Notes under the pieces: model-generated
Told to the model about the DNA's origin: nothing
What the model saw: the letters and a program-made list of their open reading frames with translations, nothing else
Database searches by the model: none
Shown here: one piece after another, positions 21,478 to 44,181 of the stretch
How positions within the stretch are numbered: position 1 is the stretch's first letter
Layout: the number at the start of each line of letters is the position of its first letter
Translations under genes and position numbers: made by a program
NCBI RefSeq assembly: GCF_028583725.1
Contig: NZ_CP110680.1
Coordinates: 2,790,001 to 2,854,000, forward strand
DNA from: Cellulomonas fimi
GTDB lineage: Bacteria > Actinomycetota > Actinomycetes > Actinomycetales > Cellulomonadaceae
Direction of reading: 5' to 3'
Length of the DNA stretch: 64,000 nt

Positions 21478-22242
21478 TCAGACGCCCGTGCGGGCCGTCT
21501 TGGTGTTGTGCGCCTGCGCGCGCGGGCGGACGACGAGGAGGTCGACGTTGACGTGCGGCGGGCGGGTCAGCGCCCACGTGATCGTGTCGGCGATGTCGTC
21601 GGCGACGAGCGGCTGATACCCCTCGTAGACCGCGGCGGCGCGGGCCTCGTCGCCGTCGAACCGGACGAGCGAGAACTCCTCGGTCGCGACCGCGCCGGGC
21701 GCGATCTCGATGACGCGGATCGGCTCGCCGACGATCTCCCAGCGCAGGGTCGTCGCGAGCATGCGCTCGGCGTGCTTCGCGCCGGTGTACCCGGCACCGC
21801 CCTCGTACGCGCCGTGCGCGGCGGTCGACGTGACCACCACGACGTCACCCGAACCCCGCTCGCGGAGCAGCGGCAGGAACGCCTTCGTGGCGCGGAGCGT
21901 GCCGAGGACGTTGAGGTCGTACATCGTGCGCCACTGCTCGAGGTCGGCGGTCTCGACGGGGTCGAGACCGAGCGCGCCGCCGGCGTTGTTGACGAGCGCG
22001 TCGAGCCCGCCGGTCTCGGCGACGTGCGCGGCGAGCCGGGCGACGTCGTCGTCGGACGTGACGTCGGCGACGAACGCGTCGGCGCCGGTCTCGGCCGCGA
22101 GCGCCTCCAGGCGGTCGGCCCGGCGTGCGGTGGCGACGACGTCCCAGCCCTCGGCGCGGAGGCGGCGCACGGTCGCGGCGCCGATCCCGGACGAGGCCCC
22201 CGTGACGACGGCGCGGCGCGGGCGGACGGGGGCGGTGCTCAT
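21478..22242 (-). CDS. Short-chain dehydrogenase, YdfG-like (malonic semialdehyde / 3-hydroxy acid type)
   Basis: NAD(P)H-dependent cytoplasmic oxidoreductase, last gene of the pyrimidine/hydantoin operon. 254 residues; Rossmann motif TGASSGIG at 14-21, NNAG at 85-88, catalytic Ser139, Tyr152 and Lys156 (YTGAK). The C-terminal part VRFDGDEARAAAVYEG and PPHVNVDLLVVRP closely follows Escherichia coli YdfG, which reduces malonic semialdehyde to 3-hydroxypropionate. After a beta-alanine aminotransferase this activity would clear the toxic aldehyde. ATG at 22242 with a GGGAG site. The match to YdfG is from memory; the specific activity is inference supported by the operon. Confidence 0.9.
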   Translation of the reverse strand: MSTAPVRPRRAVVTGASSGIGAATVRRLRAEGWDVVATARRADRLEALAAETGADAFVADVTSDDDVARLAAHVAETGGLDALVNNAGGALGLDPVETADLEQWRTMYDLNVLGTLRATKAFLPLLRERGSGDVVVVTSTAAHGAYEGGAGYTGAKHAERMLATTLRWEIVGEPIRVIEIAPGAVATEEFSLVRFDGDEARAAAVYEGYQPLVADDIADTITWALTRPPHVNVDLLVVRPRAQAHNTKTARTGV

Positions 22243-22300
22243 GGGGTCTCCCTGGGGGTGCTCGCGGTGGCGCGGGTGGCGGTGGGGCTGCCGTCGCGCA

Positions 22301-23638
22301 TCACAGCACGTCGGCGGCGACGGCGTCGAGCACGTCGCCGAGGATCTCGAGGCCGTGCGCGGCCTCGGCGGGCGTGACGACGCACGGGGGCACGACGTGC
22401 ACGCGGTTGTCGGCGGTGAACGGCAGCAGGCCTCGTTCCAGCGCACCCGTGCGCACCCGGCCGATCACGGACGCGTCGACAGGTTCGCGGGTCGCGCGGT
22501 CGCGCACGAGCTCGACAGCCCAGAAGACGCCGAGGCCGCGGACCTCCCCCACGAGCGGGTTGCGGTCGGTGAGCGCGGCCAGGCCGGGACCGATGACGTC
22601 CCGCCCGACGGCGGCGGCGTTGTCGACGATCCCCTCGTCGGCCATCGCGTCGAGCGTCGCGACGATCGCCGCCATCGCGAGCGGGTGACCCGAGTACGTG
22701 AGGCCGCCGGGGAAGACGCGCACGTCGAATGTCCGGGCGATCGCGTCGGAGATCATGACGCCGCCCGCGGGCACGTAGCCGGAGTTGACGCCCTTCGCGA
22801 AGGTGATGAGGTCGGGCACGACGTCGAACCCGTCGAGCGCGAGCCAGCGTCCGGTGCGGCCGAACCCGGCCATGACCTCGTCGAGGATCAGCACGATCCC
22901 GTAGCGGTCGGCGATCTCGCGGACACCGCGCAGGTAGCCGGGCGGTGGCACGAGCACGCCCGCGGTACCGGGGATCGTCTCCAGCAGGATCGCGGCGACC
23001 GACGTCGGGCCCTCGGACTGGATCACGCGCTCCAGGTGGTGCAGCGCGCGCTCGGCCTCCTGCGCGGGGGTCGTCGACCAGAACTCCGACCGGTACGGGT
23101 ACGGGCCGAACACGTGCACGTGGCCGCGCGCGTACTCGTTCGGCACGCGCCGCCAGTCGCCCGTCGCGACGACGGCCGCGCCGGTGTTGCCGTGGTACGA
23201 GCGGTAGTGCGACACGACCTTGTCGCGGCCCGTGTGCAGGCGCGCCATGCGGATCGCGTTCTCGTTCGCGTCGGCGCCGCCGTTGGTGAAGAAGACCTTC
23301 GAGAAGCCGGCGGGCGCGCGCGCCAGGATCCGTTCCGCCGCCTCGCCCCGGACGAGCGCCGCGGTGGACGGCGCGATCGTCGTGAGCGTCGACGCCTGCG
23401 CGCGGATCGCCTCGACGACGCGCGGATGCTGGTGGCCGATGTTCGTGTTGACGAGCTGGCTCGAGAAGTCGAGGTAGCGGCGCCCGGACGCGTCCCACAC
23501 GTGCGAGCCCGAGCCGCCGGCCAGGACGAGCGGGTCGAGGGCCGCCTGCGCGGACCACGAGTGGAAGACGTGCTCGCGGTCCAGCCGGGCGGCGGCCGCG
23601 TCGTCGGGATGGATGGTCGTGCTGGTCGGGACGCTCAC
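22301..23638 (-). CDS. Class III aminotransferase (probable beta-alanine / omega-amino acid transaminase)
   Basis: PLP-dependent fold-type I enzyme, 445 residues. Motifs: substrate/PLP region FTNGGADANENAIRMAR, the aspartate that pairs with the pyridine nitrogen in LILDEVMAGFGRTG, and the Schiff-base Lys282 in LITFAKGVNSGY, followed by GLTYSGHPLAMAA. Class III members move terminal amino groups, for example beta-alanine to pyruvate. Downstream of dihydropyrimidinase and a carbamoyl-beta-alanine-type amidase, conversion of beta-alanine to malonic semialdehyde is the most economical role. GTG at 23638 with GGGGGAG upstream. 58 bases separate it from the YdfG-like gene. Confidence 0.92.
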   Translation of the reverse strand: MSVPTSTTIHPDDAAAARLDREHVFHSWSAQAALDPLVLAGGSGSHVWDASGRRYLDFSSQLVNTNIGHQHPRVVEAIRAQASTLTTIAPSTAALVRGEAAERILARAPAGFSKVFFTNGGADANENAIRMARLHTGRDKVVSHYRSYHGNTGAAVVATGDWRRVPNEYARGHVHVFGPYPYRSEFWSTTPAQEAERALHHLERVIQSEGPTSVAAILLETIPGTAGVLVPPPGYLRGVREIADRYGIVLILDEVMAGFGRTGRWLALDGFDVVPDLITFAKGVNSGYVPAGGVMISDAIARTFDVRVFPGGLTYSGHPLAMAAIVATLDAMADEGIVDNAAAVGRDVIGPGLAALTDRNPLVGEVRGLGVFWAVELVRDRATREPVDASVIGRVRTGALERGLLPFTADNRVHVVPPCVVTPAEAAHGLEILGDVLDAVAADVL

Positions 23639-23712
23639 GTCTCCCCCTCGTGCTTCGGTGCCGGGCCGGGACCGTGCGGCGCGGACGGGTGCGCCCGCGC
23701 CGCACGGGGATG

Positions 23713-24870
23713 TCAGTTGCCGCCCGGCTCGAGCGTGACCTCGGCCGCCTGGAAGTCGGCGCCGTCGACGTCGACGCCCTCGGCACGCAGCTCCCCGAGC
23801 GCCTTGTCGACGTACTCGTTGGTGTACGCGTCGGCGCTCGGCTCGGCCGTGATGACCGTCGCCCCCTGGTCGTTCTTGGTGTTCAGGGCGATGTCGACGG
23901 TCCGCTCCCAGGCCGACTCGTCGATGATCCCGATGCCGCCCGGCGACGGCCAGACGAGCTTGTTGACCTCGTTGACCTGCCACAGCTGGTGGCTGGCACC
24001 GAGCTGTGAGCCCGCGGCCACGACGAGGTCGCGCGCCTCCTCCGGGTTGTCGCGGACCCAGATCCAGCCCTTCAGGCTCGCCTTGAGGAACTTGACCGTC
24101 GTCTCCTCGTACTCCTCGTCCGACGCGAGGCGCTCCGAGTTGGCCCAGATCGCGTCCTGGAGCATCGCGGTGCCCTCGTCGTTCCAGTCGACGACCGTGA
24201 AGTCCTCGGGCTGGTAGAGCTCGCCGGTCGCGGGGTTCACGGCCTCGAGGACCTGCGCGTACTCGTTGTACGTCATGGCCTGGGCGGCGTCGATCTCGCC
24301 CGACAGCAGCGCGTTCATGTCGAACTGCTGCTGCACGAGCGTGACGTCGGTCGCCGGGTCGAGGCCGGCCTTCGTCATGCCCGCGAACAGCTCGAACTCG
24401 TTGCCGAAGCCCCAGTTGCCGACCTTCTTGCCCTTGAGGTCCGCCGCGGACGAGATGCCCGAGTCGGCGAACGCGACCTGGAGCGTGCCCGACCGCTGGA
24501 AGATCTGCGCGACGTCGGTGATGCCCGCGCCCTGCTCGCGCGACGCGAGGGCCTTGGGCACCCACGCGATCGCGTAGTCGACGGACCCGTCGGCCAGCAC
24601 CGACTGCGGGACGATGTCGACACCGCCCTCGACGATCTCGACGTCGAGGCCCTCGTCCTCGTAGAAGCCCTGCTCGGCGGCCGCGATGTAGCCGGCGAAC
24701 TGGGCCTGCGTGAACCACTGCAGCTGGAGCGTGACGGGGGTCAGCCCGTCGGGGCCGCCGGACGCGTCGGGCTCGGGGTCGCCGGAGCCGCTGCTGCACG
24801 CCGACAGCACGAGCGCGGTGGCGACGCCGACAGCCGTCGCGGTCCACGCGGAACGCCTGGTGGGGGTCAT
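23713..24870 (-). CDS. ABC solute-binding lipoprotein, NMT1/THI5-like (pyrimidine or related substrate)
   Basis: Extracytoplasmic receptor of the importer encoded upstream in the operon. 385 residues with a lipoprotein signal whose lipobox LSAC places the modified Cys at 25, then a two-lobed NMT1/SsuA-like fold. The segments TLQLQWFTQAQFAGYIAAA and VGNWGFGNEFELFAG are typical of pyrimidine-precursor and pyrimidine-binding members. ATG at 24870 with AGGAAGG upstream. Position after the permease and ATPase genes, and before the aminotransferase, makes it the specificity component for the operon substrate, probably a pyrimidine or its reduced/ureido derivative. Confidence 0.92.
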   Translation of the reverse strand: MTPTRRSAWTATAVGVATALVLSACSSGSGDPEPDASGGPDGLTPVTLQLQWFTQAQFAGYIAAAEQGFYEDEGLDVEIVEGGVDIVPQSVLADGSVDYAIAWVPKALASREQGAGITDVAQIFQRSGTLQVAFADSGISSAADLKGKKVGNWGFGNEFELFAGMTKAGLDPATDVTLVQQQFDMNALLSGEIDAAQAMTYNEYAQVLEAVNPATGELYQPEDFTVVDWNDEGTAMLQDAIWANSERLASDEEYEETTVKFLKASLKGWIWVRDNPEEARDLVVAAGSQLGASHQLWQVNEVNKLVWPSPGGIGIIDESAWERTVDIALNTKNDQGATVITAEPSADAYTNEYVDKALGELRAEGVDVDGADFQAAEVTLEPGGN

Positions 24871-24977
24871 CTCGGGTCCTTCCTGGGGGGCGGCACTGGC
24901 GGGGCGCGCTCGCCGGAGGGGGCGAGTCGCGGTCGGCCGCACCTGGCGTCGTCGGCAGGCGGGACGGGTGGGTGGCG

Positions 24978-25754
24978 TCAGGTCCCGTCAGGGACCGCGC
25001 CGTTGCGGCGGGCGACGGCGCGTTCGAGCGCCGCCGTCGCGAGGTAGAGCACGAGGCCGAGCAGGATCGCGCCGAGCACGAACGCCCACGCGCGCGCGTA
25101 CGCGCTGTTCGCGGCGGCGGCGGTGATGCGTGAGCCGAGCCCGTTCTGCAGCCCGCCGAAGTACTCGGCGACGACGGCCGCGATGACGCCCGTCGACGAC
25201 GCGATCCGCAGCCCGGTGAACAGGTACGGCAGCGCGCCCGGCACGGTGACCGTGCGCGTGACCTGCCACGACGACGCCGCGTACGCCCGCATGAGGTCGC
25301 GGTGCACGGGCTGCACCTGCCGCAGGCCGCGCAGCGTGTTGACGAACACCGGCGCGAACACCACGACCGCGACGACGAGCCGGCGCGGGGTCGTCGACGT
25401 CGTGCCGAACAGCGTGTTGAGCGCCGGGGCGAGCGCGACGATCGGCATGACCGACAGCGCGGCGGCCGTGGGCGACATGAGCCCGTCGACGATGCGGCTG
25501 CGTGCCGCGACGATCGCCGCGAGCACCGCTGTCACCGCACCGACCAGCAGCCCGACCAGCACGTTCGCGCCGGTCGCCAGCGCCGCCGACCACACGAGCG
25601 GCACGACCTGGCGCAGCTGCTCGACGATCGCCGTCGGGCTGGGCAGCAGGTACGGCGGCAGGTCCGCGGCGACGACGACGACCTGCCACGTGACGAGCGC
25701 GAGCACGCCGACCAGGACGGGTGCGACCCACCGGCCGACCCGGGCGGCGGTCAC
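24978..25754 (-). CDS. ABC importer permease (SsuC/ThiX type) A
   Basis: Inner-membrane subunit of a nitrate/sulfonate/pyrimidine-type importer. 258 residues, about six helices, with the EAA-type coupling loop near AYAASSWQVTRTVTVPGALPYLFTGLRIA. GTG at 25754 overlaps the ATPase stop as GTGA. Together with the second permease (26635-27513) it forms a heterodimeric membrane domain. Confidence 0.9.
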   Translation of the reverse strand: MTAARVGRWVAPVLVGVLALVTWQVVVVAADLPPYLLPSPTAIVEQLRQVVPLVWSAALATGANVLVGLLVGAVTAVLAAIVAARSRIVDGLMSPTAAALSVMPIVALAPALNTLFGTTSTTPRRLVVAVVVFAPVFVNTLRGLRQVQPVHRDLMRAYAASSWQVTRTVTVPGALPYLFTGLRIASSTGVIAAVVAEYFGGLQNGLGSRITAAAANSAYARAWAFVLGAILLGLVLYLATAALERAVARRNGAVPDGT

Positions 25755-26638
25755 CGGACGTCCACGCCGCGCGTCGGGACGCCGGACCCGTGGCCGCCGT
25801 GCAGCGCCTCGCGGACCGCGGTGACCGCCGCGAAGAACGCGGCGTCCTCGCGCAGGTCGTCGGTGCGCTCGTCGGCCCGCGCGAGGTCCACGGGCACGAC
25901 CTGCGCGATCCGGCCCGGCCGCGGCGACATGACGACGACCCGCTGGGACAGGAACACGGCCTCGGGGATCGAGTGCGTGACGAACACGACGGCCGCCCCC
26001 GACTCGGCGCACAGCCGCACGAGCTCGGTCTGCATGCGTTCGCGCGTCATCTCGTCGAGCGCGCCGAACGGCTCGTCCATGAGGAGCAGGCTCGGGCTCT
26101 CGGCGAGCGACCGGGCGATCGCGACGCGCTGCTGCATGCCGCCCGAGAGCTGGTGCGGGAAGTGCCCCGCGAACTCGGTGAGCCCGACGAGTGCGAGCAG
26201 CTCGGCGGCCCGCGCGGCGCGCTCGCGGCGGCCGACGCCGTGCAGCTCGAGCGGCAGCTCGACGTTGGCGGTGACGCTCCGCCATGGCAGGAGCCCGGCC
26301 TGCTGGAACGCGATCCCGTAGTCCTGGGCCTCCCGAGCGACGCGAGGTGAACGGCCGAACACCGCGATCTCGCCCGACGTCGGCTGGTCCAGGTCCGCGA
26401 CGAGGCGCAGCAGCGTCGACTTGCCGCACCCGGACGGGCCGATGAGGGACACGAACTCCCCCGCGGCGACGGTCAGGTGGATGTCGTCGAGCGCGGTGAC
26501 GGTGCCGGCCTTCGTGCCGAACACCTTGGACACCCCGCGCACGTCGACGGCGGTGGCGGGTCCGGCAGGCGTCGGCCCGGCCGACACGGCGGACGGCGAC
26601 GCGCCGGTCGCATCGGGGGCGGTGGTGACGTCGCTCAT
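25751..26638 (-). CDS. ABC importer ATPase (SsuB/TauB type)
   Basis: Energising subunit of the importer. 295 residues. Walker A GPSGCGKST, Q loop GIAFQQAGLLPW, signature LSGGMQQR, Walker B LLLMDEPFGALD and switch VTHSIPEA are all intact. A 30-residue Ala/Pro-rich N-terminal extension precedes the ATPase fold. ATG at 26638 overlaps the stop of the upstream permease, and its own stop overlaps the next permease start, so the three genes are translated as a block. Confidence 0.94.
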   Translation of the reverse strand: MSDVTTAPDATGASPSAVSAGPTPAGPATAVDVRGVSKVFGTKAGTVTALDDIHLTVAAGEFVSLIGPSGCGKSTLLRLVADLDQPTSGEIAVFGRSPRVAREAQDYGIAFQQAGLLPWRSVTANVELPLELHGVGRRERAARAAELLALVGLTEFAGHFPHQLSGGMQQRVAIARSLAESPSLLLMDEPFGALDEMTRERMQTELVRLCAESGAAVVFVTHSIPEAVFLSQRVVVMSPRPGRIAQVVPVDLARADERTDDLREDAAFFAAVTAVREALHGGHGSGVPTRGVDVR

Positions 26639-27513
26639 GAGACCTCCGCGTGGCGGTAGCGGCCCAGGCCGAGCCCGAGCAGGGTGACGAGTCCGGCGGC
26701 GACGAGTCCGAGCACCGCGGCGGCGAGGATGGCCGCCCACGGCTTGGCGGGGTCACCGCTCGCCGCCTGGGCGTACGCGATGACGAGCCGCCCGATGCCG
26801 CCCTTGGTGCCGGTGGACACCTCGGCGACGATGGCGCCGACAACGGCCGTGGCTGCCGCGAGCCGCAGCGCGGGCAGCAGGTACGGGACGGACGCGGGCA
26901 GCCGCAGCGAGACGAGCGTGCGCCCCCACGAGGCGGCCTGCGCCCGGAACAGCTCGACCTGCGCCGTGGTCGGCGACTGCAGGCCGCGCAGCATCCCGAC
27001 CGCGACGGGGAAGAACGCGAGGTAGGACGCGATGAGGGCGACCGACATCCACTTCTGCCACTCGAGCGCGCCGAGGTGGATGCGCCCGCCCCACCCGACG
27101 ACGAGCGGCGCGAGCGCGACGAGCGGCACGGTCTGCGACAGCACGACCCACGGCAGCAGCGCGGACTCGACGAGCCGCGAGCGCTGCATGACCACCGCGA
27201 CCACGACCCCGCCGACGACGCCCAGCACCCACCCGGCGGCGGCGACGCGCAGCGTGAACCAGCACGCCTGGAGCATTGCTTCGAGCACGGTCGGCGCGCC
27301 GGTCGCGGACGTCTCGGGCTCGCCGATGCGGGCGACGACGTCCCACACGTGCGGCATCGCGACGTCGTCGGTGCGCGGCAGGACGCTCGCCTCGCCGACG
27401 TGCCACCCGGTGTCGGGCACGACGGCCTTGACGACCTCCCACAGCACGACGAGGAGCACGAGCGCCGCGGCGCCCCAGAGCGCCGACCGGGCGGCGCGCG
27501 GGCCCGTCGTCAT
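26635..27513 (-). CDS. ABC importer permease (SsuC/ThiX type) B
   Basis: Second membrane subunit of the importer, 292 residues. It has one N-terminal helix (residues 12-30), an insert of about 50 residues with DTGWHVGEASVLPRTDD, then five or six helices with the coupling loop AQAASWGRTLVSLRLPASVPYLLPALRLA. ATG at 27513 overlaps the stop of the F420-type oxidoreductase gene (ATGA). Confidence 0.9.
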   Translation of the reverse strand: MTTGPRAARSALWGAAALVLLVVLWEVVKAVVPDTGWHVGEASVLPRTDDVAMPHVWDVVARIGEPETSATGAPTVLEAMLQACWFTLRVAAAGWVLGVVGGVVVAVVMQRSRLVESALLPWVVLSQTVPLVALAPLVVGWGGRIHLGALEWQKWMSVALIASYLAFFPVAVGMLRGLQSPTTAQVELFRAQAASWGRTLVSLRLPASVPYLLPALRLAAATAVVGAIVAEVSTGTKGGIGRLVIAYAQAASGDPAKPWAAILAAAVLGLVAAGLVTLLGLGLGRYRHAEVS

Positions 27514-28541
27514 GCGGTCGCCACGACGGTGTCCGCGAGCGCGGGGATGACGCGCTCGCCGTAGAGCCGCATGGTCTCCTCCTTGTTGTCGTGCTGGAGG
27601 TAGGCGGCGAACTGGGTGACGCCGAGGTCGCGCAGAGCCTCGAGCTTCTCGACGTGCTCGCGCGGGCTGCCGAGCAGGCAGAACCGTTCGACGATCTCGT
27701 CGGGCACGAACGACGTGTGCGAGTTCCCGGCACGGCCGTGCTCGTTGTAGTCGTAGCCCTCGCGCGCCTTGATGTAGTCGGTGAGGGCCTTCGGGACGGT
27801 GCTGTCGCTGCCGTAGCGGGCGACGATGTCGGCGACGTGGTTGCCGACCATGCCGCCGAACCAGCGGCACTGCTCGCGCATGTGCGCGCGGGCGGCGGGC
27901 GAGTCGCCGTCGCCGACGTACGCGGGTGCGGCGACGCAGAACTGGATCGCGTCGGGGTCGCGCCCGGCGGCCTCGGCGGCGTCCCGGACGACCTTGATCG
28001 TCCACGCGGCGATGTCGGGGTCGGCGAGCTGGAGGATGAACCCGTCGCCGACCTCGCCGGTGAGCTGGAGCGCGAGCGGCCCGTACGCGGCGACCCACAC
28101 GTCGAGCGCGGAGCCCTTGGCCCACGGGAACCGGACGGTGCGGCCGTTGACCTCGACGGCCCGGTCGTTCGCGAGCTCGCGGATCACGTGGATCGACTCG
28201 CGCAGCGTCGCGAGGTTCGACGGTCGGCCGTTGAGCGTGCGGACCGCGGAGTCGCCGCGGCCGATGCCGCACACGGTCCGGTTGCCGAACATCTCGTTGA
28301 GCGTCGCGAACAGCGAGGCCGTGACGGTCCAGTCCCGCGTCGCGGGGTTGGTGACCATCGGCCCGACGACCACCTTGCGCGTCGCGGCGAGGATCGCGGA
28401 GTACACGACGAACGGCTCCTGCCACAGCAGGTGCGAGTCGAACGTCCACACGTAGTCGAAGCCGTGCGTCTCGGCCTGGCGGGCGAGCTCGACGGTGCGC
28501 CAGGCGGGCGGGTTGGTCTGCAGGACGACACCGAAGTCCAC
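27510..28541 (-). CDS. LLM-class, probably F420-dependent oxidoreductase of the hydantoinase operon
   Basis: Luciferase-like (TIM-barrel) oxidoreductase of the F420-using type, 343 residues. Visible family features: N-terminal DFGVVLQTNPPAWRTVELAR, the barrel strand GFDYVWTFDSHLLWQEP, and GIGRGDSAVRTLNGR, the cofactor-loop region where F420 enzymes bind the deazaflavin phosphate. It sits between dihydropyrimidinase and the importer genes with a 34-base gap upstream and an overlap downstream. GTG at 28541 has a strong GGAAGGAGG site. No other enzyme in the operon could do the first ring reduction of a pyrimidine, so this is the candidate; equally it could act on another substrate. Reaction is inference. 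Confidence 0.88.
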   Translation of the reverse strand: MDFGVVLQTNPPAWRTVELARQAETHGFDYVWTFDSHLLWQEPFVVYSAILAATRKVVVGPMVTNPATRDWTVTASLFATLNEMFGNRTVCGIGRGDSAVRTLNGRPSNLATLRESIHVIRELANDRAVEVNGRTVRFPWAKGSALDVWVAAYGPLALQLTGEVGDGFILQLADPDIAAWTIKVVRDAAEAAGRDPDAIQFCVAAPAYVGDGDSPAARAHMREQCRWFGGMVGNHVADIVARYGSDSTVPKALTDYIKAREGYDYNEHGRAGNSHTSFVPDEIVERFCLLGSPREHVEKLEALRDLGVTQFAAYLQHDNKEETMRLYGERVIPALADTVVATA

Positions 28542-28575
28542 GGGCGGTCCTCCTTCCGGGGCGTGGGGACGCGGG

Positions 28576-30000
28576 TCAGACGAGGTACTGCGAGAGGTCG
28601 CGCTTGAGGTAGCGCCCGTGGCCGGCCCGGCCGTGGTACCCGTCGGCGTCGACGACCACCGACCCGCGGGACAGGACGACGTCGACGTGCCCGTCGACCT
28701 CGAAGCCCTCCCACGCGGAGTGGTCCATGTGCATGTGGTGCGTCTTGCCCTCGCCGACCCCGATGGACGTGTGCCCGGCCGGGTCGTACACGACGACGTC
28801 CGCGTCGGCGCCGGGCGCGATGACGCCCTTGCGGCCGTACAGCCCGAACATGCGCGCGGGCGTCGTCGAGGTGAGCTCGACCCAGCGCTCGAGCGTGATC
28901 TGGCCCGTCACGACGCCCTGGTACATGAGGTCCATGCGGTGCTCGACGGACCCGATGCCGTTGGGGATCGCGCGGAAGTCGGACAGCCCGAGCTCCTTCT
29001 GGCCCTTCATGCAGAACGGGCAGTGGTCGGTCGACACCATCTGCAGGTCGTTGGTGCGCAGCGCCTGCCACATGTGGTCCTGGTGCCCCTCGGCCCGCGA
29101 GCGCAGCGGCGTCGAGCAGACCCACTTCGCCCCCTCGAAGCCCGGCGCGCCGAGCTGCTCCTCGAGCGACAGGTAGAGGTACTGCGGGCAGGTCTCGCCG
29201 AACACGTTCTTGCCGTTGTCGCGCGCCCAGGCGAGCTGCTGGACGGCCTGCTTGGCGCTCACGTGCACGACGTAGAGCGGCGCGTTCGTGAGGTCGGCGA
29301 GCATGATCGCGCGGTGCGTGGCCTCCTCCTCGAGCTGCCAGGCGCGGGCGATCCCGTGGAAGTAGGGGTCGGTCTTGCCCTGCTCGACGAGCTGCGCCGC
29401 GAGGACGTCGATCGCCGGACCGTTCTCGGCGTGCATCATCGTGAGCAAGCCGAGGTCGGCGGCCTTCTGCATGGCCCGGACGATCTGCGCGTCGTCGGCG
29501 TAGAAGACGCCGGGGTACGCCATGAAGAGCTTGTAGCTCGTGACGCCCTCCGCGACGAGGCCCTCCATCGCCTTGAGGCTGTCGTCGTCGACGCCGCCGA
29601 CGATCTGGTGGAACGCGTAGTCGACCGCGCACTTCCCGGCCGCCTTGTCGTGCCAGGCGGCCAGCCCGTCCATGACCCGCTCCCCCGCCCGCTGGACCGC
29701 GAAGTCGACGATCGTCGTCGTGCCGCCCCACGCCGCGGCGCGGGTGCCGGTCTCGAACGTGTCCGACGCGGCCGTGCCGCCGAACGGCAGCTCCATGTGG
29801 GTGTGCGCGTCGACGCCGCCCGGGATCACGTACTTGCCGGTCGCGTCGATCACGCGGTCGACGTGCGCGGCCAGGTCGAAGCCGAGCAGCGTCGAGCCGG
29901 GTGCGAGCACCGCGGCGATCGTCTCGCCGTCGACGAGCACGTCGGCCGGGGTGCGGCCCGTCGCGCTGACGACGGTCCCGCCGATGATGAGGGTCTTCAC
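28576..30000 (-). CDS. Dihydropyrimidinase / D-hydantoinase
   Basis: Zinc amidohydrolase that opens the ring of dihydropyrimidines or 5-substituted hydantoins to N-carbamoyl amino acids. 474 residues; metal ligands His66 and His68 (DAHTHMEL), bridging carbamylated Lys157 (TSYKLFMAYPG), His190 (MMHAENG), His246 (VVHVSAK) and Asp325 (STDHCPF) are all present. GTG at 30000 after GGAGAGG. It is followed 26 bases upstream by the amidase that would take its product. Family members overlap in specificity between dihydrouracil, hydantoin and allantoin; the beta-alanine-type downstream enzymes favour dihydropyrimidine here. Confidence 0.95.
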   Translation of the reverse strand: MKTLIIGGTVVSATGRTPADVLVDGETIAAVLAPGSTLLGFDLAAHVDRVIDATGKYVIPGGVDAHTHMELPFGGTAASDTFETGTRAAAWGGTTTIVDFAVQRAGERVMDGLAAWHDKAAGKCAVDYAFHQIVGGVDDDSLKAMEGLVAEGVTSYKLFMAYPGVFYADDAQIVRAMQKAADLGLLTMMHAENGPAIDVLAAQLVEQGKTDPYFHGIARAWQLEEEATHRAIMLADLTNAPLYVVHVSAKQAVQQLAWARDNGKNVFGETCPQYLYLSLEEQLGAPGFEGAKWVCSTPLRSRAEGHQDHMWQALRTNDLQMVSTDHCPFCMKGQKELGLSDFRAIPNGIGSVEHRMDLMYQGVVTGQITLERWVELTSTTPARMFGLYGRKGVIAPGADADVVVYDPAGHTSIGVGEGKTHHMHMDHSAWEGFEVDGHVDVVLSRGSVVVDADGYHGRAGHGRYLKRDLSQYLV

Positions 30001-30026
30001 TCGTGGTCCTCTCCGCTGCGTCCGGG

Positions 30027-30875
30027 TCAGGGGGCGACGATCGCGCCGTAGGCGTCGGGCCGGCGGTCGCGGAAGAACTGCCAGCGCTCGCGGACCTGCC
30101 GGATCTGGTCGAGGTCGAGGTCGCGGATCAGGAGCTGGTCCTCGGTCGAGGAGCCGACCTCGCCCACGTAGTTGCCGTCCGGACCGACGGCGTACGACGA
30201 GCCGTAGAACGCGACCGCCTCGTCGCCGTACTCGTTGTCCTCGCGGCCCACGCGGTTGTTCGCGACGACGAAGTACCCGTTCGCGACGGCTGCCGCGGGC
30301 TGCTCGATCTCCCACAGCTTGTTGGAGATGCCGGGCGCGGTGGCGTTGGGGTTGAAGACGATCTCGGCGCCGTTCAGCGCGAGCACGCGCCAGCCCTCGG
30401 GGAAGTGCCGGTCGTAGCAGATGTTGACGCCGATCTTCCCGACGGCCGTCTCGAACACCGGGTACCCGAGGTTGCCGGGCCGGAAGTAGAACTTCTCCCA
30501 GAACTTCGGCAGGTGCGGGATGTGGTGCTTGCGGTACTTGCCGAGGTAGGTGCCGTCCGCGTCGATCACCGCGGCCGTGTTGTAGAGGACGCCCGGCTGG
30601 TCCTCCTCGTAGACCGGCAGCACGATCACGATGCCGAGCTCGGCGGCGAGCGACGCGAACCGCTCGGTCGTCGGGCCCGGGACGGACTCCGCGTAGTCGT
30701 AGTAGGCGGTGTCCTGCGTGATGCCGAAGTACGGCCCGTAGAACAGCTCCTGGAAGCAGATCACCTGCGCGCCGGCCGACGCGGCCTCGCGCGTCCAGGC
30801 CTCGTGGAGCGCGATCATCGACTCCTTGTCGCCGGTCCAGGTGGCCTGGGTGAAGGCGACGCGTACGACGGTCAT
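30027..30875 (-). CDS. Carbon-nitrogen hydrolase, N-carbamoyl-beta-alanine amidohydrolase-like
   Basis: Nitrilase-superfamily amidase, 282 residues, first gene of the operon. The catalytic triad is Glu43 (CFQELFYGPYF), Lys116 (KYRKHHIPHL) and Cys153 (NICYDRHFPE). The stretch FWEKFYFRPGNLGYPVF is characteristic of beta-ureidopropionases and N-carbamoylputrescine-type members. It would release CO2 and ammonia from N-carbamoyl-beta-alanine made by the neighbouring hydantoinase. ATG at 30875 with CGGAGGAA upstream. Length matches the bacterial family. Confidence 0.93.
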   Translation of the reverse strand: MTVVRVAFTQATWTGDKESMIALHEAWTREAASAGAQVICFQELFYGPYFGITQDTAYYDYAESVPGPTTERFASLAAELGIVIVLPVYEEDQPGVLYNTAAVIDADGTYLGKYRKHHIPHLPKFWEKFYFRPGNLGYPVFETAVGKIGVNICYDRHFPEGWRVLALNGAEIVFNPNATAPGISNKLWEIEQPAAAVANGYFVVANNRVGREDNEYGDEAVAFYGSSYAVGPDGNYVGEVGSSTEDQLLIRDLDLDQIRQVRERWQFFRDRRPDAYGAIVAP

Positions 30876-31134: not shown

Positions 31135-32472
31135 ATGGACCTGGCCACCCACGTCGACGACCGGTCGCCGCGCGGCATCGCGGCCGCGGTGGCGCGGCTG
31201 GTCCACGGCGGCGAGCTCGTCCCCGGCGACCGCCTGCCGACCGTGCGCGCGCTCGCCGTCGACCTCGGCGTGAGCCCCGCGACGGTGAGCGGCGCGTTCC
31301 AGGCGCTCGCGACCGTCGGGCTCGTCGCGTCGCGCGGGCGCGCAGGCACGTTCGTGCTGCCGCCGCCCGCCGCGTGGCTCCCCCCGCGCTACCGCGACCT
31401 CGCCGGGGGCGCACCCGCCCGGCTCGACCTGTCGACGGGCACGCCCGACCCCGACCTGCTGCCGCCGCTCGGCCCGGCGCTCGCGCGCGTCGCGGCCCGG
31501 ACGCCCGCCGCCGAGGCCGGCACCTACCTGTCGACGCCGCTCGTGCCCGAGCTCGAGTCGCTGCTGCGCGAGTCGTGGCCGTTCGTGCCGCAGCGGCTCA
31601 CGGTCGTCGACGGTGCGGTCGACGCGATCAGCCGCACGCTCGAGCAGGTCGCGTCGTTCGGCGACCGCGTCGCCGTCGAGGACCCCGGCTTCCCGCCGCT
31701 GTTCGACCTCCTCGACCAGCTCGGCCTCCAGCGCGTGCCCGTCGCGCTCGACCGCAACGGCATGCGCCCCGACTCGCTCGCGCGCGCCCTGGCCGCCGGC
31801 GCGAGCGTGGTCGTGCTGCAGCCCCGCGCCCAGAACCCGACGGGCGTCTCGCTGACCCCGACCCGGGCCCGTGAGCTCGCGGCCGTCGTCCGGCGCGTCC
31901 CCGCCGCGACCGCCGTGACCGTCGTCGAGGACGACCACTGCGGGCAGATCTCCTCCGCGCGCGACGTCTCGCTCGGCACCTGGCTGCCCGACGCGACCGT
32001 GCACGTCCGGTCGTACTCGAAGTCGCACGGTCCCGACCTGCGGCTCGCGGCCGTCGGCGGGCCCGCCCGCGTGCTCGACGCGCTCGTCGCGCGCCGCATG
32101 CTCGGCCCCGGCTGGACGAGCCGCCTGCTGCAGCACGTGCTCGTCGACCTGCTGACCGACCCCGCCGCGATCGACGCCGTCGAGCACGCGCGCCGCGTGT
32201 ACTTCGCGCGCCGCCGGGCGCTCACGACCGCGCTCGCGATGCTCGACGTGCACGTCGACGGCGGCGACGGCATCAACCTGTGGCTGCCCGTGCACGACGA
32301 GCGCACGGCGCTCCTGCGACTCGAGGCCGCCGGGATCCGCGCCGCGCCGGGTACGCCGTTCGTCGCCAACGGCGCGGAGGACGGGACCGCGCACCTGCGC
32401 GTCACCGTCGGCCTGCTGTCCGCCGACGTCGCCGAGGTCGCCCAGGCCCTCGCCCTCGCCGCCCGCCCCTGA
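31135..32472 (+). CDS. MocR-type regulator (GntR helix-turn-helix fused to PLP aminotransferase fold)
   Basis: Transcription regulator of the MocR/GabR class, 445 residues. N-terminal winged helix about 10-75 (LPTVRALAVDLGVSPATV), linker, then an aminotransferase-like domain about 95-445 with QPRAQNPTG, VEDDHCGQ and the PLP lysine in RSYSKSHGPDLR (Lys296). Such proteins sense amino compounds, often beta-alanine, GABA or taurine, through PLP. It is transcribed away from the pyrimidine/hydantoin operon across 259 bp, the usual place for its regulator. ATG at 31135. Confidence 0.93.
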   Translation: MDLATHVDDRSPRGIAAAVARLVHGGELVPGDRLPTVRALAVDLGVSPATVSGAFQALATVGLVASRGRAGTFVLPPPAAWLPPRYRDLAGGAPARLDLSTGTPDPDLLPPLGPALARVAARTPAAEAGTYLSTPLVPELESLLRESWPFVPQRLTVVDGAVDAISRTLEQVASFGDRVAVEDPGFPPLFDLLDQLGLQRVPVALDRNGMRPDSLARALAAGASVVVLQPRAQNPTGVSLTPTRARELAAVVRRVPAATAVTVVEDDHCGQISSARDVSLGTWLPDATVHVRSYSKSHGPDLRLAAVGGPARVLDALVARRMLGPGWTSRLLQHVLVDLLTDPAAIDAVEHARRVYFARRRALTTALAMLDVHVDGGDGINLWLPVHDERTALLRLEAAGIRAAPGTPFVANGAEDGTAHLRVTVGLLSADVAEVAQALALAARP

Positions 32473-32906: not shown

Positions 32907-33920
32907 ATGCCCCGCACCACCCGTCGTCCCCTCGTGCCCCTCGTCGCCGTCGCCGCGCTCGCCCTCGGGCTGTCGGCCTGCGCGTCCGACGCGTCCGGCA
33001 GCGCGTCCTCGCCGACCGCCGCCGCGTCGCAGCCCGGCGGGTTCGCGCCCGTCGAGCTCGACAACTGCGGCACGCCCGTGACCGTCGACGCCCCGCCGGA
33101 GCGTGTCGTGACCGTCAAGTCGACGTCGACCGAGATGCTGCTCGCCCTCGGCCTGGAGGACAGGCTCGTCGGCACCGCGTTCGCCGACGGTCCCGTCCCG
33201 GAGCAGTGGGCCGACGCGTACGACGCCGTCCCCGTGGTGTCGGACAAGGTCCCCGGCCAGGAGGCGCTGCTCGCGCTCGAGCCGGACTTCGTCTACGCCG
33301 GGTGGGAGTCGAACTTCTCCGCCGACGGCGCCGGCGACCGGTCCGGTCTCGCGGCGCTCGGCATCGCCACGTACGTCTCGCCCGCGGCGTGCAAGGAGGA
33401 GGGCTACCAGCCCGACCCGCTGACGTTCGACGTCGTCGAGGACGAGATCCGCGAGGTTGCGTCGCTGTTCGGCGTGCAGGACCGCGCCGAGGAGCTGATC
33501 GCCGCGCAGCGCGACACGCTCGCGGAGGTCGAGCAGCCCGCCGAGGCGACGACCGCGCTCTGGTACTCGTCGGGCACGGACAGCCCGTACGTCGGCGCCG
33601 GGATCGGCGCGCCGCAGATGATCATGGACGCCGCCGGGCTGACGAACCTGTTCGCCGACGTGCACGACACCTGGACGTCGGTCGGCTGGGAGCAGGTCGT
33701 CGCCGCCGACCCCGACGTCATCGTCCTGGTGGACGCGTCGTGGAACACTGCGGACAGCAAGATCGCGCTGCTCGAGTCCAACCCCGCGACGTCGCAGCTC
33801 ACCGCGGTGCGCGACGGCCGGTACGTGACCGTGCCGTTCGCCGCGACCGAGGCGGGCGTGCGCAACGCCGAGGCCGTCGCGTCGATCGCCGAGCAGGTCG
33901 CCGCGCTGGACGAGGGGTGA
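32907..33920 (+). CDS. Metal-chelate/F420-0-type ABC solute-binding lipoprotein
   Basis: Class III (BtuF/FhuD-fold) binding protein, 337 residues. Lipobox LSAC puts the lipidated Cys at 25; two Rossmann-like lobes follow, with PERVVTVKSTSTEMLLALG and VSPAACKEEGYQPDPLTFD. The latter region and the gene order match the actinobacterial cassette named putative F420-0 ABC transporter in protein family collections (from memory). ATG at 32907 with GGAG 6 bases upstream. It starts a tightly overlapped operon with cofD and cofC, so the ligand is probably a deazaflavin precursor (Fo or F420-0) rather than cobalamin or siderophore; this is inference. Confidence 0.87.
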   Translation: MPRTTRRPLVPLVAVAALALGLSACASDASGSASSPTAAASQPGGFAPVELDNCGTPVTVDAPPERVVTVKSTSTEMLLALGLEDRLVGTAFADGPVPEQWADAYDAVPVVSDKVPGQEALLALEPDFVYAGWESNFSADGAGDRSGLAALGIATYVSPAACKEEGYQPDPLTFDVVEDEIREVASLFGVQDRAEELIAAQRDTLAEVEQPAEATTALWYSSGTDSPYVGAGIGAPQMIMDAAGLTNLFADVHDTWTSVGWEQVVAADPDVIVLVDASWNTADSKIALLESNPATSQLTAVRDGRYVTVPFAATEAGVRNAEAVASIAEQVAALDEG

Positions 33921-34986
33921 CGACGACGACCGCCACCGTCCCCCGCACCGCCCCGTCCGCCGCGCCACCCGCGGCGGCCCCGGCGCGCACCCGGCTCGCG
34001 CTGCTCGTCGCCGTGGGCGTGGCGGCGCTCGTCGGCACGGTGCTCGTGACCGTGACGATCGGACCGGCCGACCTGGGAGTCGGCGAGGTCGCGCGCAGCA
34101 TCGCCGCGCACCTCGGGTTCGACGTCGCGCCCGTCGCGCCGCTGCACGACGCGATCGTCTGGGAGCTGCGACTCCCCCGCGTGCTGACGGCTGCCGCGGT
34201 CGGCGCGGGTCTCGCGCTCGCCGGGGCGGTCATGCAGAGCCTCACGCGCAACCCGCTCGCCGACCCGTACCTGCTCGGGCTGTCGTCGGGCGCGTCGCTC
34301 GGGGCGGTCGCGGTGCTCGTCGTCGGCGTCGCGGTGCTGCTGCCGGTCGCCGCGTTCGTCGGGGCGATGGCCGCGCTCGTCGCGACGCTCGCGCTCGCCC
34401 GCTCGGGCGGCACGCTCACGCCCGGCCGCACGGTGCTCGCCGGCCTCGCCGTGTCGCAGCTGGCCGCGGCGGGCACGTCGTTCGTCATCTTCTGGACCGC
34501 GACCGGCGACTCGTACCGGGAGATCCTGTCGTGGCTGCTCGGGTCGCTCGCGGGCGCGACGTGGACGTCGGTCGCGATCGCCGGGGGTGCGGTGCTCGTC
34601 GTCGGGACGCTCGTCGTGCTCGCCGGCGTCCGGCTCGACGCGTTCGCGTTCGGCGACACGGCCGCGGCGGCGCTCGGCGTCGGTGTCGACCGGACGCGGT
34701 GGACCCTCATGACGCTCGTCGCGCTGCTCACGGGCGCGATGGTCGCGGTCAGCGGCGCGATCGGGTTCGTCGGGCTGGTCCTGCCGCACGCGGTCGGGTC
34801 GCTCACGGGTCCCGCGCACCGCCGCCTGCTGCCCGTCGCGGCGCTGGCCGGCGCGGTGTTCCTCGTGTGGGCCGACACCCTCGCCCGCACGCTGTTCGAC
34901 CCACGCGAGCTGCCCGTCGGCATCGTCACGGCCCTCATCGGCGTGCCGGTCTTCGCGGTGCTCCTGCGCCGGGGACGGGGGTCGGC

Positions 34987-34996
<10 letters not shown>
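33917..34996 (+). CDS. FecCD/BtuC-type ABC permease of the F420-precursor importer
   Basis: Inner-membrane subunit, 359 residues, about ten helices after a 25-residue Thr/Pro/Ala-rich N-terminus. Family motifs RLPRVLTAAAVGAGLALAGA, QSLTRNPLADPYLLGLSSG and the coupling region IGFVGLVLPHAV are clear. GTG at 33917 overlaps the binding-protein stop (GTGA). The stop lies inside the ATPase gene (10-base overlap). Confidence 0.92.
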
Positions 34997-35795
<799 letters not shown>

Positions 35796-35799
<4 letters not shown>

Positions 35800-36782
35800 G
35801 GATCACCGTCCTGTCCGGTGGCGTCGGCGGCGCGCGCTTCACGCGCGGGCTGCTCGCGCTGCTGCGCGACCGGCTCCCCGACGGCTCCGGCGGCACGACC
35901 GCGCAGGTCACCGTCGTGGCGAACACCGGCGACGACCTGTGGCTGCACGGCGTGCGCGTCTGCCCGGACCTCGACACCCTCATGTACACCCTGGGCGGCG
36001 CGGTGCACGAGGAGCAGGGCTGGGGCCGCCGCGACGAGAGCCGCCGCGTGTCCGACGACCTTGCCGCCTACGGGCTCGGCTGGGAGTGGTTCACGCTCGG
36101 CGACCTCGACCTCGCGACGCACCTGGCCCGCACCGAGCTGCTGCTGTCGGGCGTCCCGCTGTCGACCGTCACGGCCCGCCTTGCGGAGCGGTGGAAGCCC
36201 GGCGTGACGCTGCTCCCGATGACGGACAGCGAGGTCGAGACCTCCGTCGAGACCGTCGACGGGCGCACCATGCACTTCGAGGAGTGGTGGGTGCTGCACC
36301 GCGCCGGGATCCCCGCACGTGCGTTCCACCAGGCCGATGTCACCGTCGCCGAGCCGGCGCCCGGCGTGCTCGACGCGCTCGCCGACGCCGACGTCGTCGT
36401 CGTGCCGCCGTCGAACCCTGTGGTGTCCGTCGGCACGATCCTCGGCGTGCCCGGCATCCGCGACGCTCTGCGCGTCACGCCCGCGCCGGTCGTCGGGGTC
36501 AGCCCGGTGATCGGCGGCGCGCCCGTGCGCGGCATGGCCGACGCGTGCCTCACGGCGATCGGCGTCGAGACCGCCGCGGACGCGGTCGCCCGCCACTACG
36601 GCCGCCGGGCCGACGGCGGGGTGCTCGACGCGTGGCTCGTCGACGACGCCGACGCCGCGGTCGTCGAGCCGCTGCGCGCCGAGGGCTGGCGCGTCGAGTC
36701 CGCGCCGACGCTCATGACCGACGTCCCCGCGACGGCCGCGATCGCCGCCCGCGCGCTCGCCCTCGTGGACCGGGCGCCGTGA
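35796..36782 (+). CDS. cofD: 2-phospho-L-lactate transferase (F420-0 synthase step)
   Basis: CofD/FbiA: transfers the phospholactyl or phosphoenolpyruvyl group from the GDP-activated donor made by CofC to the deazaflavin Fo, giving (dehydro-)F420-0. 328 residues; N-terminal SGGVGGARFTRGL at 7-19, Fo/GDP-site segments VVANTGDDLWLHG and VVVPPSNPVVSVG, and SPVIGGAPVRGMAD are as in the family. ATG at 35796 overlaps the ATPase stop (ATGA); its own stop overlaps cofC. Direct coupling to an importer cassette is the notable context. Confidence 0.95.
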
Positions 36783-38138: not shown

Positions 38139-40241
38139 TCAGCGCCAGGTGTCGTTCAGCGTGAGCGTCCCCGACGACGGCACGGTGACCGTGCGGTTCG
38201 CCCCGCTCTCCCACGTCACGACGCCCGCGGCGTCCTTGCGGACGTACTTGTACTGGACCGTCGAGCCGGCAGGCAGCGTGACCGACGCCCGCCACACGGG
38301 GTAGGCCGCCGACGAGAGCGGCACGGCACGCGCCGGGTCCCAGCCGCCGAGCACGGCCGCGTCGCCGACGACGAACACGTTCTGGCCCCAGGCCGTCGTG
38401 GCCTGCACGCCGAACGACACGGCGGCCGTCGACGACGTCGGCGTGGACGTCGGTGTGGGCGTCGGCGTCGGGGTGGTGCCGCACGGGCTGCCCGGCGTGA
38501 CCACGCCACCCGCGACCCGGACGGCCGCACCGGTGAGCGTGTAGTCCCGCCCGCCGTTGTTGTCCCACGTCCCGGTGCCGTCGGTGAACGCGGCCGTCAG
38601 GGCGGCGCCGCCCGTCGACACCTCGCGCGACACCCACCCGCCGCACGCGGGGGTCATCTCGACCCCGGGCACCGCGGTCCAGGCGCCGGAGCCGACGCGG
38701 TAGTGGATCCGGTACGCCGACCAGCCGGGCGTCGTGGCGTAGTAGACGGTCGTGGTCGCGGTGGGCTGCCCGCCCGGCCGTCCGACGTGGATCGCGAGCG
38801 CGCCGTGCGCCGGCACGGTCGCGGTGAACGTCCCCGACGACGAGACGGTGACGGTCGACGCGCACGTCGCGGACGCGACGACGTCGCAGTACGTGCCCGC
38901 GGGCATCGACGTCTGGAACGTGCGGGTGACCGGCTGGTCGTGGTCGTTGAGCGCGACGTACCCGCGGTCGCCGCGGCCGAACCCGACCAGCTGCGAGCCG
39001 TCGTCGGTCCACTGCACGAGCGGTGCGCTGCCGACGCTGTTGTGGAAGCCGACCATGCCCTGCACCTCGGTCCACCGCTGCGTGCAGACCCAGCGGCTGT
39101 CCGCGCACGACGCGTCGGGCACGCTCGTGGCGCTCGCGCCGGGTGCACCGGCGTCCTTGTCGTCCCACGTGTAGCCGCTGTACACGGACGGCGCGCCGTA
39201 CGGGTGCGCGAGGAGGAACACGTTCGCGAGCCGGTACTCGGCGCCGCGCTTGTAGCTGAGCGTCTCGCCGTTGCGCTCGGTGTCGTGGTTGTCGACGAAC
39301 GTCCCGGCGGACGCGGAGGGCAGCAGCCCGTCGGCGATCGTGCGCAGGTTCGCGAGGTTCCCGTCGAACGCGGCCTTGAGCCGTCGGCCGTAGAAGAACT
39401 CGTGCGAGTCGCCGCTGCCGAGGTACTCGGACGGCTGGACGGGCTCGCCGCTCGCGCCGATGACCTCGTGCACCCAGAAGACGTCGGGGTTCGTGAGCCG
39501 GCTCTTGATCGCGGCGAGGTCGGCGGCGGGGATGTGCTTGGCGGCGTCGATGCGGAAGCCCGCGACGCCGAGGCTGAGCAGGTCGTTCAGGTAGGCCGCG
39601 AGCCGGTCCCGCACGTACGCGGAGCCGGTGCGCAGGTCCTGCAGCGAGACCAGGCGGCAGTTCTGCACCTGGTAGCGGTCGCCGTAGTTCGAGATGTTCG
39701 ACCGGCAGTCGTTGAAGTCCGCCGCGCCGTAGATCCCGGGGAACGAGTCGACGCCGAACGACGACCCGGCGACGCCCGTGCCGCTCGCCCGGTCCGCCCC
39801 GGTCGTGTGGTTGAGCACGGCGTCGGCGACGACGCCCACGCCCGCCGCGCGGCAGGTCGCGACCATCGCGCGGAACTCGTCACGTGTGCCGAGCTTCGAC
39901 TCGATGCGGTAGCTGACGGGCTGGTACGACGTCCACCACTGCGCGCCGGTGACGTGCTCCTGCGGCGGCGACACCTGCACGTACCCGAACCCGGCAGGCC
40001 CGATCGTCGAGGTGCACTCGCGCGCGACGGCGTCCCAGGTCCACTGGAAGAGGTTGAGGATGACGTCGCCGCGCCCGTTCGCGGACGGGACGACGGGCTG
40101 CGGGACGGGCGGTGCCGCGCCGGTGGGTCCGGCGGCGACGGCCATGCCGGCACCCGCGACGAGGAGCGCGGCGAGGGCGGCGACGGTGCGGCGCAGGCGT
40201 GGTCGGACGGCACGCGCGGGCGTGCGGGGGGTGGCGGTCAC
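38139..40241 (-). CDS. Secreted alpha-amylase (GH13) with CBM25 and CBM20
   Basis: Extracellular endo-alpha-1,4-glucanase on starch, 700 residues. Signal peptide about 1-43 (twin-arginine-free, hydrophobic core AALAALLVAGAGMAVAA). Catalytic barrel about 55-410 with nucleophile Asp232 (GFRIDAAKH), acid Glu259 (WVHEVIG) and Asp320 (VDNHDTER); C domain to about 505; starch-binding CBM25 about 508-590 (VYYATTPGWSAYRIHYR); Thr-Pro linker; CBM20 about 612-700 (VFVVGDAAVLGGWDPARAVPLS). GTG at 40241 with GGAGCCCC upstream; a farther upstream ATG would spoil the signal peptide. Operator-like repeats lie 130-170 bases upstream. Confidence 0.95.
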   Translation of the reverse strand: MTATPRTPARAVRPRLRRTVAALAALLVAGAGMAVAAGPTGAAPPVPQPVVPSANGRGDVILNLFQWTWDAVARECTSTIGPAGFGYVQVSPPQEHVTGAQWWTSYQPVSYRIESKLGTRDEFRAMVATCRAAGVGVVADAVLNHTTGADRASGTGVAGSSFGVDSFPGIYGAADFNDCRSNISNYGDRYQVQNCRLVSLQDLRTGSAYVRDRLAAYLNDLLSLGVAGFRIDAAKHIPAADLAAIKSRLTNPDVFWVHEVIGASGEPVQPSEYLGSGDSHEFFYGRRLKAAFDGNLANLRTIADGLLPSASAGTFVDNHDTERNGETLSYKRGAEYRLANVFLLAHPYGAPSVYSGYTWDDKDAGAPGASATSVPDASCADSRWVCTQRWTEVQGMVGFHNSVGSAPLVQWTDDGSQLVGFGRGDRGYVALNDHDQPVTRTFQTSMPAGTYCDVVASATCASTVTVSSSGTFTATVPAHGALAIHVGRPGGQPTATTTVYYATTPGWSAYRIHYRVGSGAWTAVPGVEMTPACGGWVSREVSTGGAALTAAFTDGTGTWDNNGGRDYTLTGAAVRVAGGVVTPGSPCGTTPTPTPTPTSTPTSSTAAVSFGVQATTAWGQNVFVVGDAAVLGGWDPARAVPLSSAAYPVWRASVTLPAGSTVQYKYVRKDAAGVVTWESGANRTVTVPSSGTLTLNDTWR

Positions 40242-40371
40242 GGAGGGGCTCCGATCGGGCTCGGCGCACGTCGTCGTGCGCGGTCGTGGCGTGGGCGGGC
40301 GGTCCGGACGTCGAGCTGCGCTGCTCGCCGGGTGGGCGTGGCGTCGGACCGGTTCCGGGTCGCGGAACGGC

Positions 40372-40406
40372 AGCAAACTCTTGCTGCAACTTGCAACAAC
40401 GCGTTG
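40372..40406 (-). promoter_or_regulatory. Operator-like repeats upstream of the alpha-amylase gene
   Basis: An AT-richer block with repeated TTGC/GCAA steps: CTTGCTGCAACTTGCAAC and the perfect palindrome CAACGCGTTG at 40397-40406. Similar repeats lie in front of amylase and chitinase genes of other actinobacteria and LacI-family (MalR-like) repressors recognise CG-centred palindromes. No regulator gene is close. The rest of the 260-bp gap to the YbjQ gene shows nothing clear. Confidence 0.45.
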
Positions 40407-44018: not shown

Positions 44019-44181
44019 CCGCGTCGCTCTCCCTCGTCGTGCCGGGCGGCCCGCCTCGTGCGGGTGGCCCTCCGGCGACACTAACCCCGCCATGTGTCGC
44101 GCGTGTTCCCCCGCGCACAGGCGGGCCGGGCTGTGGAAACCCGCACGGGACGCGGTCGCGGATCTGGGAGGATGTGTGCCC

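Follow-up and report, generated by a model that had tools for sequence, protein, structure and literature searches.

We analyzed a 64,000-nucleotide stretch of Cellulomonas fimi DNA (RefSeq assembly GCF_028583725.1, contig NZ_CP110680.1, positions 2,790,001 to 2,854,000; here, the window), which lies within a 4.49-Mb genome assembled as one contig. Nine genes on its minus strand, at 21478 to 30875, probably encode a reductive pyrimidine degradation (Pyd) pathway in which dihydropyrimidine dehydrogenase is replaced as the first reductase by an F420H2-dependent enzyme, namely, a luciferase-like oxidoreductase of the TIGR03842 family (LLM; 27510 to 28541). The operon would amount to a new version of this route, one that is well supported by genomics. 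A sequence-only reading of the same DNA had already proposed this replacement. It held up in the genomic comparisons described here (the lack of PreTA in the genome, the co-occurrence of LLM with F420 genes, a plasmid island in Leisingera, and the occupation of the same setting by PreA in relatives), while the substrate and the use of the cofactor are deduced from them.

All nine genes are intact open frames reading in the same direction, and family scans agreed with the content given in the sequence-only reading, that is, an importer, a dihydropyrimidinase (hydA), an amidase, an aminotransferase, and a YdfG-like short-chain dehydrogenase/reductase (SDR), together with the TIGR03842 LLM. The same reading had most junctions as 4-base overlaps, but this is true of only three of the eight, the other five being gaps of 26 to 107 bases. 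The amidase gene (30027 to 30875; CN_hydrolase, PF00795) probably encodes a beta-ureidopropionase (N-carbamoyl-beta-alanine amidohydrolase). Its best NCBIfam model was N-carbamoylputrescine amidase, below the cut-off (257 versus 410 bits), and the structure ranking was headed by 2vhh (CG3027-PA), which we take to be the fly beta-alanine synthase, followed by N-carbamoylputrescine amidohydrolases and the beta-ureidopropionases 8pt4 and 6ftq, with similar scores for beta-ureidopropionase and N-carbamoylputrescine structures. The dihydropyrimidinase gene (hydA or pydB; 28576 to 30000) reached 537 bits with TIGR02033 (cut-off, 393), and the closest structures of its product were of the D-hydantoinase/dihydropyrimidinase type. 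The LLM gene overlaps by 4 bases the first gene of an ATP-binding cassette (ABC) importer, made up of a permease (26635 to 27513; PF00528), an ATPase (25751 to 26638; PF00005, with a taurine ATPase as the best NCBIfam model, below its cut-off), a second permease (24978 to 25754; PF00528), and an NMT1-type substrate-binding protein (23713 to 24870; PF09084), probably for a pyrimidine. The class III aminotransferase (22301 to 23638), a probable beta-alanine aminotransferase, scored 737 bits with NF004718 (cut-off, 472), an unnamed subfamily, and its nearest structure was a taurine:2-oxoglutarate aminotransferase. The SDR (21478 to 22242), possibly a malonic semialdehyde or 3-hydroxypropionate reductase, had YdfG as the best model, although at 182 bits it was below the cut-off of 411.

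In the proposed pathway, the NMT1-type ABC system would import a pyrimidine base, and F420H2 would donate a hydride, via the TIGR03842 enzyme, to uracil or thymine at C6, with a proton added at C5, yielding the dihydropyrimidine. The dihydropyrimidinase would then open the ring, and the amidase would form beta-alanine (or beta-aminoisobutyrate) with the release of ammonia and CO2. This product would be turned into the semialdehyde and finally the hydroxy acid by the aminotransferase and the SDR. Here we infer the substrates, the direction of the reaction, the use of F420, the hydride transfer, and the uptake of the deazaflavin Fo (see below). The dihydropyrimidinase, ureidopropionase-like, aminotransferase, and semialdehyde reductase-like steps are common to the known Pyd pathway (PydA/PreTA), and the NMT1-type importer is shared with Pyd clusters containing PreA. 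In contrast, the first reductase of the window has a luciferase fold, whereas PydA/PreTA are FMN/Fe-S enzymes, and its proposed donor is F420H2, while the donors given for uracil reductases in the available part of PMC7332683 are NADPH, NADH, and ferredoxin. If true, F420H2 would be the fourth electron donor of this group of enzymes.

The usual first enzyme was searched for in the complete genome. The best match to the PreA model had 29 bits (cut-off, 335), and the PreT search gave three N-terminal-domain matches, two of them GltD and the third a GltD-like protein that fell below every listed cut-off. The DHO_dh match was a quinone-type PyrD. Since neither PreA nor PreT was found in a genome consisting of one contig, we consider that the usual dihydropyrimidine dehydrogenase is missing, as the sequence-only reading had stated for the operon; a PreTA elsewhere in the genome, which that reading had named as evidence to the contrary, did not turn up. 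Family scans of the operon proteins revealed no other candidate for a ring reductase.

The LLM of the window matched TIGR03842 (CPS_4043-type), a luciferase-fold family, with 599.4 bits, well over the curated whole-protein cut-off of 295.45, and was 99% identical to the LLMs of Cellulomonas fimi, C. septica, and C. algicola. In an alignment of 37 family members from Actinomycetota and Pseudomonadota, the identity between the two phyla was 43 to 47%, and the GRGDS, VTNP, MVGNH, and YDY blocks were conserved. The nearest solved structures were those of the F420-dependent enzyme Mer. However, identity with Mer was rejected: the Mer model gave 140 bits (cut-off, 349), and the catalytic Glu6, the proton donor of Mer, is Val6 in the window protein and was Glu in none of the 37 aligned members. 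RutA was also considered, since it has a luciferase fold and acts on uracil. This enzyme opens the ring in an FMN- and O2-dependent reaction and works with the companions RutB to RutD. It was set aside as unlikely, as RutA was not among the 25 listed of the 26 matched NCBIfam families, and RutA structures appeared only at rank 35 and lower, while the 14 best VIA-align rows were F420 enzymes without exception. The same results argue against the more general possibility that the LLM is an FMN-dependent enzyme, such as a RutA-like monooxygenase, that merely happens to be located in the operon, an explanation that we consider very unlikely in view also of the distribution of F420 genes described next.

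A sample of 296 Actinomycetota genomes, including that of the window, was screened, and the tallies, as well as the distances between hydA and LLM, were compiled by hand from the match lists. TIGR03842 was over its cut-off in 62 genomes (carriers), hydA in 89, and PreA in 2, while CofE (PF01996) was found in 171. Practically all carriers had hydA (61 of 62), compared with 28 of the 234 noncarriers, and a similar picture emerged for CofE (60 of 62 versus 111 of 234). The sequence-only reading had suggested checking for co-occurrence with F420 producers; with CofE as the marker, this held for the 60 genomes, and the two carriers without CofE were fragmented assemblies holding pieces of CofH or FbiC. 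These CofE counts weigh against an FMN enzyme and, along with the cof cluster on plasmids (see below) and the ranking by fold, suggest indirectly that F420 may be the hydride carrier of the LLM. By eye, CofH was present at an E value of ≤1e-60 in 52 carriers and not in the other 10, two of which (G194 and G115) had FbiC pieces and eight had none. TIGR03842 was found in neither of the two PreA-positive genomes; in one of them (G196, L126), where TIGR03842 did not reach the cut-off, hydA was located 1.3 kb from PreA. Another genome, G230, had no matches to CofE, CofH, TIGR03842, or hydA, while its congeners G265 and G280 had all four, which looks like a joint loss or gain of the four genes.

In 54 of the 62 carriers, hydA and LLM were on the same contig, and in 49 they were ≤10 kb apart, the remaining five distances being 13, 14, 17, and 51 kb and 3.36 Mb. 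The Fisher tests gave extreme values, which are treated here as descriptive because the genomes share ancestry. We also examined the best 80 of at least 514 related stretches, all of them from Actinomycetota by their titles. Around the LLM, these contained hydA (79), the amidase (77), NMT1 (67), the aminotransferase (64), a MocR-type regulator (63), and the SDR (28), and in the only locus where hydA was not seen (L082), the LLM was at the end of a contig. The proximity of hydA to the LLM in 79 of 80 loci is more than chance. When only the 56 loci with full flanks were counted, hydA and the amidase were present in all of them, NMT1 in 48, the aminotransferase in 47, and the SDR in 20, indicating that the SDR is optional (28 of 80 and 20 of 56). 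The presence of hydA by itself was rejected as proof of pyrimidine use, given that 28 of the 89 hydA genomes had no LLM (PreA was found in 1 of these 28 and CofE in 15). Along similar lines, in Sulfitobacter, hydA adjoins an N-carbamoyl-D-amino-acid hydrolase and a racemase.

Plasmids provided an independent setting. Only 39 of 72,556 plasmid records contained cofD (E value of ≤1e-20), and this rarity makes its linkage to LLM there telling. A TIGR03842-like protein (E value of ≤1e-40) was found in 13 records, 10 from Leisingera (spanning two species) and 1 each from Paracoccus, Streptomyces, and Rhodococcus (the last 33% identical). All 11 records from Pseudomonadota also had cofD, while 28 of the 39 cofD records had no LLM. 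In the 2 of the 10 Leisingera records from which the content of the island was established, one strand carried an NCS1 symporter, hydA, a carbamoylase, an aminotransferase, and the transhydrogenase genes pntB and pntA, and the other carried cofG, cofH, cofD, cofC, cofE, npdG, LLM, and a TetR regulator. The aminotransferase was over the cut-off as omega-aminotransferase AptA, and NpdG was over the cut-off as NADPH-dependent F420 reductase. For the regulator, RutR provided the sole models at an E value of ≤1e-15 and the sole close structures, with scores below the RutR cut-offs. In Paracoccus alcaliphilus, the arrangement was cofGHDCE-npdG-LLM followed by an NMT1 importer, and hydA was not found within 12 kb of this cluster. 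The clustering of LLM with cofGHDCE in both genera is a further point against an FMN-dependent enzyme.

When plasmids were searched with the Leisingera hydA, 22 records had a protein at least 60% identical, of which 10 were the Leisingera records with LLM. The other 12 (60 to 80% identical) had PreA on the same record in 9 cases, neither gene in 3, and LLM in none, and in general there was no overlap between the 13 LLM records and the 50 PreA records (E value of ≤1e-100). Qingshengfaniella and Roseinatronobacter have an oxidoreductase-PreA pair with a RutR-like regulator, a carbamoylase, hydA, and an NMT1 importer, and their carbamoylase and hydA proteins are 69 to 74% and 72 to 74% identical, respectively, to those of Leisingera. 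In Thalassospira, the oxidoreductase-PreA pair is accompanied by an amidase 52% identical to that of the window, and the NMT1 proteins of the three PreA clusters are 37 to 40% identical to the window protein. The mutual exclusion of PreA and LLM on plasmids also speaks against the idea that the LLM reduces or oxidizes F420 for other enzymes with an intermediate of the operon, e.g., malonic semialdehyde, and that the pyrimidine reductase has gone unrecognized. Some luciferase-fold F420 enzymes (Fgd) do reduce F420 with their substrate, according to the accessible part of PMC8498797. Nevertheless, the operon offers no further ring-reductase candidate, F420 reduction in Leisingera is already covered by NpdG, and we judge this explanation highly improbable.

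A different alternative is that the LLM uses F420 to reduce some other heterocycle that feeds the dihydropyrimidinase and the carbamoylase, in which case the operon would not serve uracil or thymine. Examples would be a purine ring product, a modified pyrimidine, and a hydantoin of the 5-substituted or ylidene type. The dihydropyrimidinase family includes hydantoinases, and in Leisingera the best model of the carbamoylase, with the cut-off passed, was allantoate amidohydrolase, while allantoin permease was the second-best model of the symporter, below the cut-off. In addition, a yanthine reductase of the F420-dependent luciferase family has been predicted in uric-acid clusters of Chloroflexota, as described in the part of PMC12507026 that is available. 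On the other hand, a RutR-like regulator adjoins the Leisingera LLM, AptA is over its cut-off there, and similar downstream enzymes in the relatives accompany PreA, whose annotation is for uracil and thymine. Taken together, another heterocycle seems unlikely, although less so than the two explanations mentioned above, and we favor uracil and thymine as the substrates of the reductase.

From what is available of that source, the yanthine reductase prediction is the closest prior idea. As in the window, a luciferase-family F420 enzyme is predicted there in place of a PydA-like or YgfK ring reductase, but the substrate is purine derived and both the pathway and the phylum are different. A literature search, whose coverage left out most subscription journals, did not meet the name TIGR03842, and within that coverage, no proposal of F420-dependent uracil reduction was found in the titles and beginnings of abstracts listed. 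In the available portion of the 2021 F420 review (PMC8498797), neither "uracil" nor "dihydropyrimidin" appears as a term, and the reason why Proteobacteria make F420 is named as an unanswered question. If our proposal is true, it would provide the answer for one group, some of them marine bacteria, and a large family whose annotation goes no further than "F420-dependent" would have an assigned reaction.

The source of the cofactor is probably different from what the sequence-only reading had assumed, i.e., that nearby cof genes show that F420 is made. The window contains only cofD (2-phospho-L-lactate transferase; 35796 to 36782, plus strand; TIGR01819, 337 bits, cut-off of 257) and cofE (F420-0:glutamate ligase; 42124 to 43002, minus strand; TIGR01916, 220 bits, cut-off of 181), and CofG, CofH, and FbiC were not found in the genome. 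In this genome, the CofH model TIGR03551 had no match at an E value of ≤1e-5 (both candidates scored), and a profile made from ten FbiC proteins had none at an E value of ≤1e-3 (17 of 28 candidates scored, the maximum per genome in these runs being 17), while FbiC-bearing genomes, used as positive controls, were detected in the same searches. A search limited to the window with the Leisingera CofC gave no match either. Given that no Fo synthase was found, cofD and cofE are no proof of de novo synthesis of the cofactor, and this assumption was discarded.

Directly upstream of cofD and in the same direction, three genes exceeded the curated cut-offs for a putative F420-0 ABC transporter: a substrate-binding protein (32907 to 33920; TIGR03868, 468.5 bits, cut-off of 392.4), a permease (33917 to 34996; TIGR03869, 518.5 bits, cut-off of 437.35), and an ATPase whose gene overlaps cofD (34987 to 35799; TIGR03873, 388.6 bits, cut-off of 372.4). 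Such a transporter had been predicted earlier by the makers of the models, and what is new is its link to a missing Fo synthase and a pyrimidine operon. Its position beside cofD suggests that the deazaflavin is probably scavenged, and because CofD acts on Fo, the import of Fo fits better than that of F420-0. Judging from these genes, the deazaflavin core is probably taken up as Fo in the source organism instead of being made there; it would then be finished by CofD and CofE. F420H2 may be supplied by an FGD-family F420 oxidoreductase encoded beside cofE (43002 to 44252, minus strand, start codon uncertain; TIGR03557, 279 bits, cut-off of 210), a protein that also scored 307 bits with the FMN-dependent TIGR03885 ("flavin_revert"), below its cut-off of 399.

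The same searches were applied to 50 named TIGR03842 genomes from the 80 loci. CofE was present in 49, while CofH or FbiC reached at least 256 bits in only 8, with weak partial matches in 2 and none in 40. In the 42 relatives without CofH or FbiC, the FbiC profile gave only five matches of 59 residues (E values of 5.7e-4 to 7.0e-4). All three importer genes (at least 45% identity) were found in 31 of these 42 genomes and in 1 of the 8 with FbiC, counts that rest on stretches of unequal length, several being short contigs. The one genome with both, Cellulomonas sp. RIT-PI-Y (L035), in which the importer is linked to cofD, differs from most relatives and may have gained Fo synthase recently or be at an intermediate stage. 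In Actinotalea sp. Marseille-Q4924, neither FbiC nor the importer was found, the latter in two 20-kb stretches.

On these grounds, we advance, tentatively and with slightly less than even confidence, the broader view that the LLM represents a second, F420H2-using class of uracil/thymine reductase that is widespread and that Cellulomonas and most of the named relatives searched have lost Fo synthase and come to depend on scavenged Fo, a vitamin-like cofactor source for what is a housekeeping route of nitrogen supply. If true, their pyrimidine use would depend on neighbors releasing Fo, imported through the cofD-linked ABC system, with F420 becoming, through the lack of Fo synthase, a cofactor that is traded within soil communities.

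Some other features deserve mention. A gene for a MocR-type regulator (31135 to 32472, plus strand), with GntR and aminotransferase I/II domains, is divergent from the operon and could be its regulator. The FbiC-type proteins of Microbacterium, Oerskovia, Sanguibacter, Agreia, and others (L133, L134, and L144 to L149) scored ca. 250 to 340 bits, below the CofH cut-off of 374, and form a divergent FbiC group. Finally, the region between cofD and cofE encodes, at 38139 to 40376, an alpha-amylase whose starch-binding domains are of the CBM25 and CBM20 types.

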